Assembly: GCA_025361285.1 (NCBI GenBank)
Contig: JANYAP010000185.1
Coordinates: 1 to 37,742, forward strand
Reading direction: 5' to 3'
Length of the DNA: 37,742 bases
Source: Bacteroidales bacterium
GTDB lineage: Bacteria; Bacteroidota; Bacteroidia; Bacteroidales; JAAUTT01
The translations under genes were made by a program, and so were the position numbers. Positions 1 through 7,074 of the stretch are shown here, one piece after another (positions within the stretch are counted from its first letter, which is position 1; each line of letters starts with the position of its first letter). The notes below the pieces were generated by a model. The model was not told where the DNA came from and made no database searches. It saw nothing but the letters and a program-made list of their open reading frames with translations.

Positions 1-279
1 GATATCGATAGTTGTAGATATATCAATTTTTGTTATCATAAGCGGATGACTCAGAGGAATAAGCGAAGATGTACTTTTTGCAGCCTGAATTCCAGCAATT
101 TCGGCAACAGTAAGAACATCGCCCTTTTTCATTCCATTTTCTTGAATCAATCTTATGGTGTTGGGCTGTAGCCGAATAAAACCGGTAGCCTTTGCAATCC
201 TTATTTGATCGGGCTTACTGGCAACATCAACCATGTTAGCTTTTCCAAATTCGTTAATATGCGATAGTTTATTGCTCAT
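1..279 (-). CDS. moaC: MoaC, cyclic pyranopterin monophosphate synthase (partial, C-terminus beyond left edge)
   Basis: MoaC converts the GTP-derived 3',8-cyclo-GTP made by MoaA into cyclic pyranopterin monophosphate, the first stable intermediate of molybdenum cofactor synthesis. Only the first 93 codons lie in the window. The reading frame starts at the ATG read from 279-277 and opens with LSHINEFGKANMVDV, followed by KKGDVLTVAEIAGIQAAK and LIPLSHPLM, which are the conserved blocks of the MoaC family. It is the last visible gene of a minus-strand cofactor operon. It lies 67 bases downstream of moaA, and that gap carries a seven-base repeat array. The frame runs off the edge without a stop, so the remaining half (about 65 residues in typical MoaC) cannot be assessed. 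Confidence 0.95.
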   Translation of the reverse strand, partial: MSNKLSHINEFGKANMVDVASKPDQIRIAKATGFIRLQPNTIRLIQENGMKKGDVLTVAEIAGIQAAKSTSSLIPLSHPLMITKIDISTTIDI

Positions 280-346: not shown

Positions 347-1144
347 TTAACCTCCAATATTATAAAACTGGTGTGCCACACTGCCAGTACCCTTTTCGGG
401 TTTCATACGTAATGCTTTAAAAAAAGCTTCTTCTATGCCTAACTCTCTAATATTAAAGCCATAATTACTATGTAAACAGGGCTTTATAGTTCCGTCGGCT
501 GTTAATCGTAACCTGTTGCAAAGGCTGCATACGCCACCATCTCCCCCATCAACGGGGTAAAATTCGCCCGTTTCGAGGTTCATTTGCCGTATAAAACGCA
601 TTTGAATACCCTTATTGGTACAGAAAGTCTTAACCTCCAATTCATCAACTTCATTTACTGTCTTAATGCGCACAAAATTAATTTTCACAGGCATTAAATT
701 GGCCTCAATTGCAGCATCTATTCCCGCTAACGTGTCCAACAATTTCCCTTTGGTAATATTAAAAAACTTTTCGTGGTTAAGTGTGTCAAGACTAATATTC
801 ACCCTGTCTAAACCAGCTTCTTTCAATTGTTTGGCATACTTAGCTAAATGAGTTCCGTTGGTTGTGAGTCCCAATTCTTTAATTCCAGTTGTCGATTTAA
901 TTCGTTTAGTTAATTCGATAATATCATTGCGCAGAAGTGGTTCGCCACCTGTAAGCCTAATTTTGGTTATGCCGAGTGATGCTCCAATTTTTACTACTTC
1001 AACAATTTCATCGCAAGTTAAAATGCTCGTTCGATGCATCAGTTTAACGCCCTCGGTAGGCACGCAATAGCTGCAACGCAGGTTACACCTATCGGTGAGG
1101 GAAATGCGCAGGTAAGTAATGTTGCGGTTAAATTGGTCGAACAT
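347..1144 (-). CDS. moaA: MoaA, GTP 3',8-cyclase (radical SAM), compact form
   Basis: This radical SAM enzyme rearranges GTP to 3',8-cyclo-GTP at the start of molybdenum cofactor synthesis. The N-terminal cluster motif CxxxCxxC is at residues 20, 24 and 27. The radical SAM GGEP motif is at about 66-69. The second cluster site CxxC-x13-C is at 206, 209 and 223 and includes CNRLRLTADG, whose arginines bind GTP in the family. The protein ends in the Gly-Gly tail that the family needs for activity. It is 265 residues against about 330 for usual MoaA; the missing part lies just before the second cluster, where FIRQMNLETGEFYPVDGG runs almost straight into the cysteines. All catalytic landmarks remain, so it is probably functional and belongs to a short subfamily. 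Its start overlaps the moeA end by 17 bases. Confidence 0.92.
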   Translation of the reverse strand: MFDQFNRNITYLRISLTDRCNLRCSYCVPTEGVKLMHRTSILTCDEIVEVVKIGASLGITKIRLTGGEPLLRNDIIELTKRIKSTTGIKELGLTTNGTHLAKYAKQLKEAGLDRVNISLDTLNHEKFFNITKGKLLDTLAGIDAAIEANLMPVKINFVRIKTVNEVDELEVKTFCTNKGIQMRFIRQMNLETGEFYPVDGGDGGVCSLCNRLRLTADGTIKPCLHSNYGFNIRELGIEEAFFKALRMKPEKGTGSVAHQFYNIGG

Positions 1145-2303
1145 ACACTGTTTCTCCTTGTTTTATAATAGTGACATTTTCAGGCACTTCCATAAGTGCA
1201 TTTGCATAAGCCAACGCATTAATATGTGCCGATCCATGAAAATTAATTTCTTCTATAATATTGTTTTCTAATAAATTAACCGGTATAATGCCTAATCTAC
1301 CAGCTTTTTGGCGACAAAAATCTTTTGAAAGTGTTGCTTTTAAGCGCGGTGTTTGCCATGCACAATTCATGAGCTTATAAATAAACGGTTTAACAAACAA
1401 TTCGAACTGAACGAATGAAGAGACTGGATTGCCAGAAAGCCCAAAACAATATTTTTGGTTTTTTTTACTGAAAGTCATTGGATTGCCAGGTTGCACACCC
1501 GTTTGATCTACAAGTACTTCGAAGTTGTGTTTCTTGAGTATAGCGGGCACAAAATCGAAGTCGCCATTCGATGCCCCACCTGTAATAATAACAATATCGT
1601 TATTAGCTAGGCTTTTTTCAAAACTAACCGATATTTGTTCGAAATCGTCGGCAATGGTTCCTATGTAATTGTATCGAATACCCAGGGTTTGTAGTTGAGC
1701 CATAAGCTGATACGAATTACTGTTGCGTATTTGTCCCGCTACGGGCGTTTTGGACGGCTCAACCAACTCGGTGCCAGTAGCCATAATGCCAACAACGGGT
1801 GTTTTAGAAACTAAAATGGAGGTATATCCGGCACCAGCCATAGTTCCAATATGGGAAGGCGATATTTTTATACCTTTCTTAATCAAAAGGTTACCAAGCT
1901 TATAATCTTCGCCCTTATAACAGATATTTACCTTCGTTTGTAAATTATTGCACTTCACGGAATTCTCATTCAAAACTTGCGCATCTTCAATCATAAAAAC
2001 GCAGTTTGCGCCATCAGGAACTGCTGCCCCAGTCATTATTTTCGAGCATTGATTTTTGCCTATAGGTTTTGTTGGTAACCTTCCCGCCTGAATTATTTCG
2101 AGTACCTCCAATTCATTATCTAAATCCTCCTTTCTACAAGCATATCCGTCCATTGCCGATTTGTCGAATGGTGGCATGTTTATATCGGCAACAATATCTT
2201 CCTGTAATACCCTATTTATGGAGTTTAACAAGCTTACCTTTTCTGTAAACAGTATTGTTGCGGCCTGTTTAATAGTATCGATTACATTACTGTAAATTAT
2301 CAT
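1128..2303 (-). CDS. moeA: MoeA, molybdopterin molybdenumtransferase
   Basis: MoeA inserts molybdate into adenylylated molybdopterin to finish the molybdenum cofactor. The reading frame shows the N-terminal substrate loop PPFDKSAMDGYA, the sequence GEDYKLGNLL, the MPTT-like nucleotide-binding stretch IMATGTELV, the block IITGGASNGDFDF and the PGNPMTF / FGLSGNPVSSF region typical of MoeA. The frame is open to 2390, but I chose the ATG at 2303 (MIIYSNVIDTIKQA) because it matches the usual MoeA start and gives 391 residues, the normal size. The extra 29 upstream codons only restate the other frame of the previous gene. The start overlaps the mobAB end by 17 bases, so the two are probably translationally coupled. 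Confidence 0.93.
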   Translation of the reverse strand: MIIYSNVIDTIKQAATILFTEKVSLLNSINRVLQEDIVADINMPPFDKSAMDGYACRKEDLDNELEVLEIIQAGRLPTKPIGKNQCSKIMTGAAVPDGANCVFMIEDAQVLNENSVKCNNLQTKVNICYKGEDYKLGNLLIKKGIKISPSHIGTMAGAGYTSILVSKTPVVGIMATGTELVEPSKTPVAGQIRNSNSYQLMAQLQTLGIRYNYIGTIADDFEQISVSFEKSLANNDIVIITGGASNGDFDFVPAILKKHNFEVLVDQTGVQPGNPMTFSKKNQKYCFGLSGNPVSSFVQFELFVKPFIYKLMNCAWQTPRLKATLSKDFCRQKAGRLGIIPVNLLENNIIEEINFHGSAHINALAYANALMEVPENVTIIKQGETVYVRPI

Positions 2304-3408
2304 TTGGCGTTGAATTGATGGTGAAACAATTATTGCTAAATTGAATATCGGCAACGTTAATATCGGTAACGCCATTAGTGTATGTAACAATAATTGGGTT
2401 GAAGTTTAACACCGATTTTTTTTCGTTTGGAGTTTCTGTGCCTTTCACAAACAAAAATAAACTAGGTTTTATGTAATGATGCAGACCTCCCGACTCGCAA
2501 ACAACGGCGCAATGTTCAATTTCTGACGATAATGTACTAATGGCCTCTAGAAGATATTCCTGCTTTGCTTGAATATAAAACACCTTTTTTGCGCCTGCTT
2601 GCTTCATTCGCGAACTATCTTTATTGGAAGTTAGAACCTCTTCAATTATCTGATAATAAGCACTATTGAAAACAACCTTCTCGCCATTCTCAATCGGGTA
2701 AAAATGATGAGCAATTTTTATTCCAATTACTTTGTTTGTTTGCGATAAATGGCGAATTATATCACAGGCTAACAATGTTTTACCTACATTCTGACCATTG
2801 CCAGCAATGAGTAGAATGTTTGAGTAATTTATTAATGGGTTTGCAATATGGTTTATTATCAAATCATTAGGAGTATTAATATTTTTTAAAACACTAACGT
2901 TTTCAACAACAATATATTTGGTATTAATAGCTTTTAGCAGATTTTGAATTTTGTAATCGCCATTTTCTATTTGACTAACGATTATAGGTAGTATATCCTT
3001 TGAGTAATAGCCTGTTAAAGGTTCAATTTTACCATCCTTCAAAATAGGTACTACGGCATCGTAATTTTCGATATTGCTAATTATAGTTTTAAGAAATTCG
3101 ACATTCAAAAACGGTGTGTCGCAAGGAGTAATAAGGTTTTTGCGGGTTTGTGAGTGGCGTAGGCATGCTTCCAAGCCAGCCAAAGGACCCATGTTTTGGT
3201 AGTTATCTGGCACAACAGGTATGTTAAATGCGTTGTACGCTTGTGTATTTGCGCCTATTATTACGGTGCGGCATACTTCCTTCATGGCCGAAATGCCATA
3301 TTCTATCATTTTTTTTCCATTAAACGAAAGCATAGCTTTGTTGCTGCCCATGCGGGTACTTTTGCCACCAGACAAAATTATACCTGTTATGTTTTCGTTT
3401 ATAATCAT
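2287..3408 (-). CDS. MobA-MobB fusion, molybdopterin guanylyltransferase with GTP-binding adaptor domain
   Basis: Two cofactor-maturation proteins appear in one chain. Residues 1 to about 190 are MobA-like: the nucleotide loop GGKSTRMG at 14-21, PDNYQNMGPLAGLEACL, and the metal/acid motif PCDTPFL near 95-101, ending with NINTPNDL. MobA attaches GMP to molybdopterin. Residues from about 197 to 373 are MobB-like: a P-loop GNGQNVGKT at 203-211, KIAHHFYP where MobB has its KxxHH-type segment, and a C-terminal half rich in beta strands. MobB binds GTP and associates with MobA, so the fusion would place the partners together. It lies four bases after the MOSC-MogA gene and overlaps moeA, within one operon. 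The MobB half is more divergent than the MobA half. Confidence 0.85.
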   Translation of the reverse strand: MIINENITGIILSGGKSTRMGSNKAMLSFNGKKMIEYGISAMKEVCRTVIIGANTQAYNAFNIPVVPDNYQNMGPLAGLEACLRHSQTRKNLITPCDTPFLNVEFLKTIISNIENYDAVVPILKDGKIEPLTGYYSKDILPIIVSQIENGDYKIQNLLKAINTKYIVVENVSVLKNINTPNDLIINHIANPLINYSNILLIAGNGQNVGKTLLACDIIRHLSQTNKVIGIKIAHHFYPIENGEKVVFNSAYYQIIEEVLTSNKDSSRMKQAGAKKVFYIQAKQEYLLEAISTLSSEIEHCAVVCESGGLHHYIKPSLFLFVKGTETPNEKKSVLNFNPIIVTYTNGVTDINVADIQFSNNCFTINSTPNDNLQ

Positions 3409-3412
3409 GCCT

Positions 3413-4336
3413 CTAATGGTTGTCGATAGCGTAAAGCATATTAAAACAATGAAATATAATCTTATTTATTTCGTCCATGTATTCATCAACGGCCTTTGGG
3501 CTGCCCGGTATTGCAAATATAAGGGTTTTGTTTTTTGTGCCAGCAATAGCCCTGCTAATAAGTGCGTTAGACTTTTCCATTCCGTATTTCAAACGAACCA
3601 TATCCATAATACCCGGTATTTCTTTATCGAGCAATGGTTGTATGGCCTCGGGAGCTATATCGCGTGGACCAATACCTGTGCTGCCTGTAGTGATAATAAT
3701 ATCGTATTCGTTTTTAAACGCTTCCAATAGTTTTTCAGAAATCATATCGGGCTCATCGGGCAATATTTGCGCGTCTATTATATGTTTTCGGCCTTTTGTT
3801 TCCATTAGTGATTGTATTTTTTTAGCCACCAACGGTCCGCTGGCGTCTTTCGAAATGCCCGCAAAACATCGATCGCTAAGCGTAATAACCAAAATTTTAA
3901 ATACTTTGGGTTGAAGTAGTAATTCGCTGCCCGCATGTAGCTGTCCGCGTTGCAATACTCTACAAAAAACACCTTCTTTGGGCATCACGCAATTGCCAAC
4001 TTCGCGGTAAATAACACAATTGGTGCCGTGGCATTTTTTGCCAATTTGGGTTAGTTCCAGAATTACTTCACCACAGGTAAAGCGGTCGAGTACACCTACT
4101 TTTGTAGAATCGAACCCTTGCAAGGTAATATTTTCGGCAAATTCGCCAGGTTCAATAGGTCGTCCTAATTCGCTTGAGAACTTTTCGATACTTTCGCCAC
4201 CCAAAAGACTAACTTGACGATGCCATTTGCCTGCATGTGCATCGCCAATAATACCATTATCGTTCAATTCAAAACTTTTTACTGGAGTTTTTATAACCCC
4301 TTTCTTATCGGAAATATTAAGAGAAATTATTTTCAT
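3413..4336 (-). CDS. MOSC domain - MogA/MoaB fusion protein
   Basis: This is a two-domain molybdenum cofactor protein of 307 residues. The N-terminal part, to about residue 145, is a MOSC domain (GIIGDAHAGKWHRQVSLL, PGEFAENITLQG, IGKKCHGTNC, VMPKEGVFCRVL), the sulfur-carrier fold found in Moco sulfurase C-termini. The C-terminal part, from about 150, is MogA/MoaB-like (ILVITLSDRC, DASGPLVAKKI, ITTGSTGIGPRD, AIPGSPKAV), the domain that adenylylates molybdopterin before metal insertion by MoeA. I start at the ATG read from 4336 (MKIISLNIS), where the MOSC domain begins, rather than nine codons upstream. It is the first gene of the visible minus-strand operon. No clear TAnnTTTG box is seen before it. 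The upstream flank carries seven-base repeats. Confidence 0.88.
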   Translation of the reverse strand: MKIISLNISDKKGVIKTPVKSFELNDNGIIGDAHAGKWHRQVSLLGGESIEKFSSELGRPIEPGEFAENITLQGFDSTKVGVLDRFTCGEVILELTQIGKKCHGTNCVIYREVGNCVMPKEGVFCRVLQRGQLHAGSELLLQPKVFKILVITLSDRCFAGISKDASGPLVAKKIQSLMETKGRKHIIDAQILPDEPDMISEKLLEAFKNEYDIIITTGSTGIGPRDIAPEAIQPLLDKEIPGIMDMVRLKYGMEKSNALISRAIAGTKNKTLIFAIPGSPKAVDEYMDEINKIIFHCFNMLYAIDNH

Positions 4337-4483: not shown

Positions 4484-4668
4484 AAGTCATGCGTTTTAGT
4501 ATCATTCCAACGTAGGTCGCAATCCATAAAATAAAAAATACTAGGGATTGCCTTCGGCGAGCTCGTAAACTCGGTTCCTACCTTCGTCGGAATGTCAGCA
4601 TACTTTTATGGATTGCCTTCGTATAGGGTTTTGTAATTCAAACATTTGCACAACTTATTTAATTACAA
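4484..4668. repeat. Dispersed palindromic intergenic element, copy A
   Basis: This 185-base unit matches copy B at 13883-14068 (186 bases) over most of its length. Both begin AAGTCATGCG-TTTAGT and end CAAnTTGnACAACTTATTT-like followed by AATTACAA. Both contain outer inverted arms around TCATTCCnACGTAGGTCG and CGTCGGAATGnCAGCATA, followed by TTTTATGGATTGCCTTCG. The GC-rich module at 4546-4578 is 33 bases long and is the exact reverse complement of 13918-13950 in copy B. No open reading frame or transposase is associated. Confidence 0.85.
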
Positions 4669-4758: not shown

Positions 4759-5484
4759 TCAAATTATTAACAGCTTAACACTTGCAACAAATAGTACCAA
4801 GGCGAGAGCATACTTAAGTTTTACATATTGCCATTTAAAACTTCCGGCATACGAACCTGCCATGCCACCAGCAATAGCCATAAATAACGCAATAACCATT
4901 TCATTGTTCATTACAAACCCTGTTAACCCTAAGCCCACCAAGCCCGAAACGGAATTAAGCAATATAAACATAGCCGAAACTGCAGCGGTTTCTTTCATGC
5001 TAGCCCACCGAAAAATAATTAGAATAGGGCTAAGTATAATACCGCCTCCAATGCCAATTAGTCCCGACATAAACCCTAAAACGGCACCAATTGCTAAACC
5101 TACCCAAAAAGGCAATGGTTTGGAATTTTCATTTTCGCCACGGTTCATAAAAAGCATTCGAACTATGCCCAATAATAGACATACAGCTAAAATGCCATTG
5201 TACATCGATGGAACTATTTTAAGTCCAGCACCCAAATAAGCCATTGGAATAGAAGTGATTACAAAAGGCAGCAAAAGTTTCCATTTGAAATGCCCCCCTT
5301 TGTAAAATGAAATAAACGCGACAGATGAAACAAATACGTTTAGCATTAACGCCGACGATTTCATTAATGATGGGTCGATACTGAATAGCGCCATAAGTGC
5401 CAAGTATCCGCTCGCCCCCCCATGCCCTACCGAAGAATATAGAAAGGCAACTATTAAAATGAGAAGAAAAAAAACTATTTCCAT
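4759..5484 (-). CDS. TauE/SafE-family membrane permease
   Basis: This is a predicted integral membrane transporter of 241 residues with about eight hydrophobic segments. It shows the duplicated TauE/SafE signature: SSVGHGGASGYLALM near the N-terminus and GLIGIGGGIILSPILI in the second half. Family members export or import sulfite, sulfoacetate and other organosulfur anions; the substrate here is not shown by sequence. The ATG at 5484 (MEIVFFLL) begins exactly at the first membrane segment. The open frame extends upstream to 5637, but that part encodes a non-hydrophobic peptide and coincides with a structured RNA leader, so I reject it. The gene is preceded by a terminator hairpin that ends a few bases before the start codon. 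Expression is therefore probably controlled by premature termination. Confidence 0.9.
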   Translation of the reverse strand: MEIVFFLLILIVAFLYSSVGHGGASGYLALMALFSIDPSLMKSSALMLNVFVSSVAFISFYKGGHFKWKLLLPFVITSIPMAYLGAGLKIVPSMYNGILAVCLLLGIVRMLFMNRGENENSKPLPFWVGLAIGAVLGFMSGLIGIGGGIILSPILIIFRWASMKETAAVSAMFILLNSVSGLVGLGLTGFVMNNEMVIALFMAIAGGMAGSYAGSFKWQYVKLKYALALVLFVASVKLLII

Positions 5485-5489
5485 GTGTG

Positions 5490-5532
5490 TAAAATAAAAA
5501 ACACCCCTTAACACAATGGAAAAGAGGTGTTT
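5490..5532 (-). terminator. Attenuator (intrinsic terminator) in the leader of the TauE-like gene
   Basis: On the minus strand the arm AAACACCTCTT (5532-5522) pairs with AAGGGGTGTTT (5509-5499). This gives 11 base pairs with one G-U and a 12-base loop, followed at once by a U-rich run (5500-5490). The run ends only about six bases before the start codon at 5484. It is an intrinsic terminator placed between promoter and gene, the usual arrangement for attenuation. Confidence 0.85.
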
Positions 5533-5664
5533 ATATAATAAACACTTGAAACTCCTTTCCAAATAAGCCTTGTTTACCAAAGCTAGGGAGGACAGCAAGT
5601 TTCCCTGTCTATCCCATCGGTTTAGGTTTCGTGGCACATATGCTTTAGAAACCTAAACTCGGAG
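5527..5664 (-). promoter_or_regulatory. Structured leader, riboswitch-like, class not identified
   Basis: Read on the minus strand: a closing CTCC/GGAG pair (5664-5661 with 5555-5552) encloses three hairpins. Hairpin 1 is 11 perfect pairs, GTTTAGGTTTC with GAAACCTAAAC (5658-5648 and 5630-5620). Hairpin 2 is GACAG/CTGTC (5609-5605 and 5595-5591), extended by GGGA/TCCC. Hairpin 3 is AGCTTTG/CAAGGCT (5584-5578 and 5572-5566). Directly after the closing stem, GTGTTTAT (5545-5538) pairs with ATAAACAC (5534-5527). This antiterminator uses six bases of the terminator's 5' arm, so only one of the two can form. I could not match the core to SAM, TPP, cobalamin, FMN, fluoride or c-di-GMP consensus sequences. 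A molybdenum-cofactor class is conceivable from context but not shown. Confidence 0.7.
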
Positions 5665-5680
5665 AAATTGTACATTTTAT

Positions 5681-5811
5681 GAATTAGGCGTTAGGCTAGA
5701 GGCTGTAGGCTGTAGGAGCTTCGTTACAATCCATAAAATGCTGCAATAAATGCAAATTCGATAGATTTAGCTTTGATATGTGCTCTAGTCTACAGCCTAA
5801 AGCCTAAAGCC
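5681..5811. repeat. Inverted heptanucleotide arrays downstream of pgk
   Basis: Immediately after the pgk stop (minus sense) come GGCTTTA, GGCTTTA and GGCTGTA (5811-5791). About 75 bases further on, the complementary words GGCTGTA GGCTGTA appear in plus orientation at 5701-5714, preceded by TTAGGCG/TTAGGCT. The two arrays can pair as a long imperfect hairpin. The segment between them includes CAATCCATAAAA (5728-5739), a word also found in the dispersed palindromic element. Confidence 0.75.
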
Positions 5812-7074
5812 TTATCCCCGTATTGCCTTAATACCAGGTAGTTCTTTGCCTTCCATGTATTCGAGCATTGCGCCACCGCCAGTTGATACGTAGCTAACTT
5901 TATCGCCAAGCTTGTTTTTATTTATTGCTGCAACCGAATCGCCACCACCTATAAGACTATAAGCGCCTTTACTGGTTGCTTTGGCTATTGCGTGAGCCAC
6001 CGACGACGTGCCCTTTGCAAATTTTTCCATTTCGAAAACGCCCATAGGGCCATTCCAAAGTATGGTTTTAGAGTTCTCAATTACTTCTTCGAAAATTTTT
6101 ATCGACTCATTTGATATATCTAAACCCATCCAACCATCAGGTGTTTCATTAATTTTCGACGTGTTTATATTAGCATTTGCATCAAAAGCGTCGGCATTAA
6201 CTGCATCAACGGGCAAATAAACCTTAACACCTTTTTCTTTGGCTTTTTTAAGAATATCTAAAGCTAGGTCGAGCTTATCTTCTTCGCAAAGCGATTTTCC
6301 AATTTTCCCGCCCTGTGCTTTAATGAAGGTATAAGTCATTCCTCCACCAATAATCAGATTATCAACACGATTAAGTAAATTTTCGATAATCAAAATTTTA
6401 TCGGAAACTTTTGCTCCGCCCATAATAGCTGTAAAAGGTTTCTGTGGCGATAAAAGTACCTTGTCGATAGCCTTAAGCTCGCTTTCGATTAGGAAACCGA
6501 ACATGCTGTCGTTAGGGAAATAAGTTGCTATTAAGGCAGTTGATGCATGCGCACGATGGGCAGTTCCAAAAGCATCATTTACATAACAATCGGCATAGCT
6601 AGCTAATTGTTTCACAAAATCTTTTTGGCTTTCCTTTACTTTAGCCTTGCCCGCTTTCTTCTCATCATCGGTTGGGTTCTCGCCTAAATGATATGGTTTA
6701 CCTTCTTCTTCTTCGTAAAAGCGGAGGTTTTCGAGCAATATAATTTCGCCAGGCTTAAGAGCCGCAGTTAATTTTTTGGCTTCATCGCCCATGCAGTCGC
6801 CAGCAAAAACAACTTTCTTGCCAATATTTTTTTCAACGGCAGAGATTATGTGTTTCAACGAAAACTTATCCTGCACTTTACCATCGGGGCGGCCAAGATG
6901 CGACATCAAAATAGCCGAACCACCATCGTTTAAAATTTTGTTTATCGACAGTAAAGCCCCACGGATACGAGTATCGTCAGTAACTTCGAACGTTTGTTTG
7001 TTTAGCGGAACATTAAAATCGACTCTAACAATAGCTCTTTTACCTTTAAAATTGTATTTATCAATAGTTTGCAT
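5812..7074 (-). CDS. pgk: Phosphoglycerate kinase
   Basis: This cytoplasmic glycolytic enzyme transfers phosphate between 1,3-bisphosphoglycerate and ADP. The 420-residue length is typical. Visible landmarks in order: [13 protein letters not shown] near residue 15, the substrate-binding SHLGRPDG near 59-66, [45 protein letters not shown] and the nucleotide-binding C-terminal block [11 protein letters not shown] followed by [14 protein letters not shown]. Nothing essential is missing. The start ([14 protein letters not shown]) is the first in-frame ATG and lies 29 bases from a TAnnTTTG box. The gene is divergent from the DUF4143 ATPase. Confidence 0.98.

Follow-up and report, generated by a model that had tools for sequence, protein, structure and literature searches.

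The closest described counterpart of the RNA considered here is the molybdenum cofactor (Moco) riboswitch of Rfam family RF01055, represented by the E. coli moaA leader (Regulski et al., 2008, PMC2408646) and treated in that organism also in the available text of PMC12121620. As described in the accessible portion of the former paper, the class has a characteristic core sequence and the helices P1, P2, P4 and P5, known members carry a GAAA tetraloop on P4 and stand upstream of Moco genes, and some use an intrinsic terminator; all of these features recur in the leader described below. RNAs without the P3 helix, the 'Tuco' form, are there assigned to the tungsten cofactor, and the absence of P3 is likewise common to the present RNA. 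The abstract of that paper names gamma- and delta-Proteobacteria, Clostridia, Actinobacteria and Deinococcus-Thermus, with Bacteroidetes not among them; newer distribution data for RF01055 may already include Bacteroidota. A Moco riboswitch also marks a molybdate transporter within the Moco locus of Caldithrix abyssi, although the available text identifies that transporter as MOT1 (PF16983) rather than a TauE/SafE protein and places the RNA 1130 nt upstream (PMC5317091). For the TauE family itself, the accessible part of PMC11535334 describes TK06_RS10770, which shares the family name with the permease discussed here and imports a tetrahedral oxyanion; the likeness is one of description, and the oxyanion is sulfate, not molybdate. 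From the known form of RF01055 the present RNA differs in lacking P3, in carrying an extra hairpin on P5 and in preceding, as its first gene, a TauE/SafE permease.

The window, by which the whole analyzed stretch of 37,742 nt is meant, comprises positions 1-37,742 of contig JANYAP010000185.1 (assembly GCA_025361285.1) from a Bacteroidales bacterium (JAAUTT01). The genome (G000) is of draft quality (202 contigs, 97.7% completeness), and absences reported from it are for that reason provisional. The best explanation of the locus, to which a probability of roughly 0.8 may be given, is a P3-less RF01055 riboswitch acting as an OFF switch over an operon for molybdenum uptake and Moco synthesis; the computed part of this explanation consists of the class membership, the covariation, two mutually exclusive folds with their energies, and the gene content.

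RF01055 is the sole Rfam family to exceed its gathering score anywhere in the window (E = 2e-12; Infernal, Rfam 15), and the leader RNA is a member of this known class (Table 1). Weaker matches of PyrR, Yfr10, rimP and mir-4766 to the leader lie far under their gathering scores and were set aside as chance. Aligned to the Rfam model, the window RNA lacks the P3 helix, and its P5 carries a 24-nt stretch holding the extra hairpin. The leader folds with z = -4.87, and none of 200 shuffles folded as well. A first-pass annotation of this DNA had described a short closing stem and hairpins of 11, about 9 and 7 pairs; the stem and the outer two hairpins are present on the minus strand as drawn, while the middle one is present with 10 pairs, 6 + 4 around one bulge. 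It had also regarded the core as matching no common class, a view that the full-length RF01055 match overturns, and had proposed an Infernal comparison with Rfam models, RF01055 among them, which returned a score well over the gathering score. Of the ligands it considered, a sulfur compound or small anion finds no support as a ligand of the RNA, and Moco or tungsten cofactor agrees with the class.

Within the order, 33 of 393 genomes match RF01055, of which 32 exceed the gathering score and contribute 33 aptamers; the remaining genome (G365, 29.1 bits) was dropped from the aptamer set and from all counts of riboswitch genomes. The covariation that the same annotation had suggested looking for among relatives' leaders is strong in these 33 aptamers: 23 of the 28 pairs show changes on both sides (17.6 on average after shuffling, and as many in 0 of 500 shuffles), with a covariation score of 0.527 against 0.183 for shuffled alignments. 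P3 is absent from all 33, its place being taken by a linker of six alignment columns. The GAAA loop is found on P4 of the window RNA and in 31 of the 33 aptamers, and 27 have CTAA in the 5' strand of P2; the opposite side of the putative tetraloop receptor in P2 fits a loose pattern in 20. The first gene behind the aptamer is a TauE/SafE permease in 20 cases, a TonB-dependent receptor in four, mobA in three, an unnamed membrane protein in three, and moeA and MOT1 in one each; the last aptamer (G120, L049) has no assigned target, its contig ending 356 bases downstream. A phylum-wide sample yielded matches in 20 of 375 genomes, 18 over the gathering score, and among the genes that follow are those for MoaA, ChrA-type carriers and a MOT1-like protein; P3 appears by eye to be present in three of these RNAs (L191, L195, L202).

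The platform between aptamer and permease can adopt two exclusive folds. In the ligand-free minimum-energy fold of the leader (-62.0 kcal/mol, ViennaRNA), GGAAAGGAG, which is the aptamer's own 3' strand, forms nine pairs with CUCUUUUCC around an inner hairpin, giving an antiterminator; when P1 is enforced (-57.4 kcal/mol), a terminator forms instead, ending just before the permease start codon. The 8-bp antiterminator of the first-pass annotation corresponds to the inner hairpin, the real element being larger by the nine outer pairs, and the 11-bp terminator that it placed near the start codon is present and shares bases with the antiterminator as stated. Its general idea of a riboswitch with transcription-terminator logic before the TauE/SafE permease is borne out by both folds and by the RF01055 match; the permease is indeed the first target, but Moco genes also lie behind the switch. 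An overlap of antiterminator and terminator arose in none of 200 shuffles of the window platform. Among 32 order leaders (L058 was excluded, its 3' strand not being recognized), an overlapping pair occurs in four (the window, L039, L041 and L051) against 0.04 expected from dinucleotide shuffles, and terminator-like sites occur in 10 against 2.1 expected; the overlapping switch was not seen by this analysis in the other 28, which may act on translation. An initial tally of terminators that relied on mononucleotide shuffles (13 of 33 against a 13% control) was crude and picked up the window's antiterminator, and the dinucleotide test supersedes it. Complementarity to GGAAAGGAG alone is weak evidence, since 387 of 2000 shuffled versions of the U-rich platform also give nine continuous pairs (G-U allowed). 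A generic terminator scan, which allows loops of up to 8 nt, did not list the window terminator, whose loop exceeds that length.

A terminator switch in the window leader is likely on these models, and ligand binding would drive the change between the computed folds. With no ligand, GGAAAGGAG would pair with CUCUUUUCC, block the terminator and leave the operon to be read (ON); with ligand bound, P1 (CUCC/GGAG) would be held, CUCUUUUCC freed and the 11-bp terminator formed before the start codon (OFF). To turn the switch OFF, ligand binding would have to contribute about 4.6 kcal/mol. Abundant cofactor would shut down the operon for molybdenum uptake and Moco synthesis.

Six genes follow the riboswitch, encoding the TauE/SafE permease, a MOSC-MogA protein, MobA, MoeA, MoaA and a partial MoaC, and in the window as in its order relatives the RF01055 RNA stands before genes for Moco synthesis, transport or Moco enzymes. 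Because a gap of 422 bp separates the permease from the MOSC-MogA gene in this genome, co-transcription of the whole set is presumptive. The rest of MoaC was found at the starts of contigs C4 and C99; window positions 1-141 are identical to the start of C4, and C99 also begins inside moaC, a pattern that reads as either an assembly fork or strain variation. Imperfect inverted repeats, which may be small repeat elements, occur upstream of the riboswitch (window 5683-5711 / 5787-5815) and in the gap after the permease (4519-4531 / 4604-4616).

Table 1. Coordinates and supporting matches of features in the window (positions 1-37,742) and, where a locus prefix is given, in related loci.
Feature	Position	Strand	Basis
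Moco/Tuco riboswitch aptamer, RF01055, P3-less	5535..5676	-	60.9 bits by cmscan against a gathering score of 36; model positions 1-135
P1-closed aptamer core	5552..5664	-	ViennaRNA fold and Rfam alignment
P1	5664-5661 / 5555-5552	-	CUCC pairs with GGAG
P2	5658-5648 / 5630-5620	-	11 pairs
P4	5614-5604 / 5599-5590	-	10 pairs (6 + 4, one bulge)
P4 loop	5603-5600	-	GAAA
Extra P5 hairpin	5584-5578 / 5572-5566	-	7 pairs
Antiterminator	5518..5560	-	ligand-free MFE; GGAAAGGAG 5560-5552 with CUCUUUUCC 5526-5518 around 8-bp inner hairpin
Antiterminator inner hairpin	5545-5538 / 5534-5527	-	8 bp
Terminator, U-rich tail to 5491	5491..5532	-	11 pairs (5532-5522 / 5509-5499); forms if P1 enforced
Permease start codon	5484-5482	-	ATG
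TauE/SafE permease (241 aa), a candidate importer of molybdate	4759..5484	-	PF01925 112.6 bits, cut-off 32.6 (run without first codon)
MOSC domain and MogA/MoaB-like domain	3413..4336	-	PF03473 and PF00994 over cut-off
MobA with weak MobB-like C-terminal part	2287..3408	-	PF12804 over cut-off; PF03205 slightly short of its cut-off (26.2 vs. 26.6 bits)
MoeA	1128..2303	-	PF03453, PF00994, PF03454 over cut-off
MoaA, 265 aa, shorter than 336-position model	347..1144	-	TIGR02666 270.9 bits, cut-off 284.05
MoaC, truncated by contig end	1..279	-	PF01967 94.2 bits
TonB-dependent receptors	L038:389-2431, L052:2131-4395, L056:6908-9169, L057:595-2856		39-60% identical to L052
Unnamed membrane protein behind riboswitch	L031:8133-9863, L042:2120-3776, L048:431-2096, L040:2952-4700, L056:5707-6810
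Short chromate-transporter-family protein	L190:1685-2513, L194:2011-2532; by eye also L199, L204, L207		PF02417

The window permease matches PF01925 alone in Pfam and nothing in NCBIfam; neither collection gave a match to the ModB or MOT1 family models, and a comparison of its profile with solved structures, by sequence, gave none at E up to 1. Homologues at E <= 1e-25, all at least 47% identical, occur in 19 of 247 order genomes, every one of which carries MoaC, as against 110 of the 247 overall (p = 8e-8), and 16 of the 19 have the riboswitch. The other three carriers gave no riboswitch either by Rfam or by the model built in this analysis. In G128 the permease precedes moeA, moaA, moaC and a MOSC-MogA gene and follows a gene that by eye is molybdenum-hydroxylase-like; in G229 it adjoins a gene without an NCBIfam match whose product shares 40% identity with the window MobA-MobB across 136 aa, and two TonB-dependent receptors of the L052 type lie near it. 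The most diverged homologue, that of G103, has neither riboswitch nor Moco genes within 11 kb. Separately, the gene following the riboswitch-controlled permease of G206 (L043:8076-9080) encodes a ferredoxin-type membrane protein, not a Moco protein, which is NapH-like at 39-40 bits, well under the cut-off.

Among named genomes 573 relatives were confirmed, of which the best 80 comprise 75 from Bacteroidota, three from Chlorobiota/Chlorobi and one each from Saccharibacteria and Gammaproteobacteria. Together with the loci of G128, G229 and G103 these make 83 permease loci, some of which duplicate contigs of the order set (L093 = G070, L122 = G233). Moco genes are found at 63 of the 83 and were not seen at 20. 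The riboswitch stands just upstream of the permease at 14, a count from which a match in L127 (20.2 bits, E = 0.052, other strand) was excluded, and a ModE-like gene is present at 14 further loci, mostly adjacent but in L160 at a distance of about 3 kb. Comparison with ModE_repress gave 84.0 and 83.8 bits for two of these ModE-like proteins, against a cut-off of 98.5, and the other 12 calls rest on similarity to the first. Riboswitch and ModE-like gene occur together at none of the 83 loci, a separation that is not significant by itself (p = 0.11).

Judging by this context, a role for the first-gene permease as a molybdate importer in place of ModABC is moderately favored; a search of the draft genome found no ModABC permease over threshold. 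Riboswitch genomes with mobA or moeA first all have ModB over cut-off (4 of 4), as against 1 of 19 of those with TauE first (p = 6e-4), a split that was noticed before it was tested and in which two of the four genomes share a genus. Mutual exclusion of permease and ModB does not reach significance across MoaC-positive genomes of the order (1/19 vs. 11/91, p = 0.69), in those without a ModB-like permease under cut-off (0/10 vs. 5/21, p = 0.15) or in those without AOR (PF01314; 0/9 vs. 3/11, p = 0.22). The MOT1 molybdate transporter occupies the slot of the permease in one relative, L051; MOT1 is both over cut-off and behind the riboswitch only in G171, and weak matches just over cut-off lie elsewhere in the genomes of G085 and G188.

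Three other explanations bear on these assignments. That the leader belongs to a new, unassigned riboswitch class is exceedingly improbable: the missing P3 and extra P5 hairpin do make its core look unlike the consensus, but it matches RF01055 over the full length of the model, no other family in the window reaches its gathering score, and Moco genes lie downstream. The same riboswitch and operon might instead respond to the tungsten cofactor, as the lack of P3 would suggest, given that, in the available text of PMC2408646, P3-less RNAs come from 19 organisms of which 17 hold genes indicative of Tuco metabolism. Of the two marks of the Tuco subtype, the window RNA shows the absence of P3; tungsten-cofactor genes are not found in the draft genome, where the tungsten-enzyme search with PF01314 (AOR) gave no match and no Wtp-like permease was seen. 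No ModB exceeds its cut-off there (best 61.3 bits), MOT1 was not found, and a molybdenum-enzyme search that covered PF00384 gave one match, a DmsA-like protein (492.8 bits against a cut-off of 777.7) beside a DmsB over cut-off. Since AOR and a ModB-like permease were not found in this genome and its one PF00384 protein resembles DmsA, Moco is the likelier ligand. In the order, moreover, AOR is not enriched among riboswitch genomes (13/32 vs. 151/393), and MoaC-positive genomes carry the permease less often when they have AOR (10/90) than when they do not (9/20; p = 0.001). A ModB-like permease under cut-off (128-141 bits) occurs in exactly the 13 of 32 riboswitch genomes that have AOR; in G056, the one of the 13 in which its identity was examined, it is WtpB-like (269.6 bits, cut-off 340) and stands beside AOR and a WtpA over cut-off. 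The locus of that genome, L088:1991-8771, offers an example of AOR together with a Wtp-like tungstate permease. Tungsten cofactor is on balance an improbable ligand for the window RNA, and Moco quite probably the true one.

The remaining alternative leaves the riboswitch as described and concerns the cargo of the permease, which might move a sulfur oxyanion (sulfite or sulfate, exported or imported) rather than molybdate, perhaps serving sulfur transfer to molybdopterin. The family name of PF01925 speaks for it, as does the TauE homologue reported, in the accessible text of PMC11535334, to restore sulfate uptake in E. coli without cysA, and the G103 homologue has a sulfur-like gene context by eye. 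Weighing against it are the ModE-like genes at 14 of the 83 permease loci; the presence behind the same riboswitch of MOT1 and, in other classes, of ChrA-type carriers; and the 20 MoaC-positive, AOR-negative genomes, each of which holds exactly one of the permease (9), ModB (3) or a ModB-like permease under cut-off (8). Transport of a sulfur oxyanion seems rather unlikely on this evidence, and molybdate import the preferred reading. Beside the permease of G103 (L185:5027-9693) lie genes that by eye encode a cysteine synthase, a DsrE-like protein and a sulfide-quinone-reductase-like protein.

Other putative uptake proteins also stand behind the riboswitch. A family of TonB-dependent receptors is the first gene in 4 of 33 order loci and is a candidate outer-membrane route for molybdenum; two relatives also lie near the permease in L187 (L187:5054-7402). 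The unnamed membrane protein is in several loci accompanied by a THEP1-like NTPase (PF03266) or joined to it in one protein, and relatives of about 200 aa are found behind the riboswitch in seven loci of the phylum sample (L188, L192, L193, L196, L197, L198, L200). Pfam hits under cut-off, its only such indication, suggest that it is possibly ECF-like; its structural model has a mean pLDDT of 72.7, and a fold search with this model returned nothing at E < 0.001, the top rows having TM of about 0.15. Outside the order, the short chromate-transporter-family protein is found behind Moco riboswitches, preceded by a carboxymuconolactone-decarboxylase-family gene.

A link of TauE/SafE proteins to Moco riboswitches or to ModE was not found in the literature searched, and the available text of PMC6147048 and PMC12758843 does not mention TauE; subscription journals were thinly covered, and the novelty evidence from this negative is weak for that reason. 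The RNA class is known, and the useful new point is that the permease is probably, judging by sequence and context, a molybdate importer in many Bacteroidota. A broader proposition stands at about even odds: that this TauE/SafE subfamily is an unrecognized molybdate importer of Bacteroidota placed under P3-less Moco riboswitches in certain lineages and under ModE-like proteins in others, that the P3-less RNAs of these bacteria sense Moco rather than the tungsten cofactor, and that the riboswitch marks further uptake by the TonB-dependent receptor, the THEP1-like-linked membrane protein and ChrA-type carriers. In the accessible text of PMC6147048, 278 of 3683 Mo-utilizing bacteria have no known transporter. 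The riboswitch may serve as a label for a secondary transporter that could supply molybdenum without ModABC, WtpABC or TupABC, and the window RNA would be a case against inferring tungsten from a missing P3.
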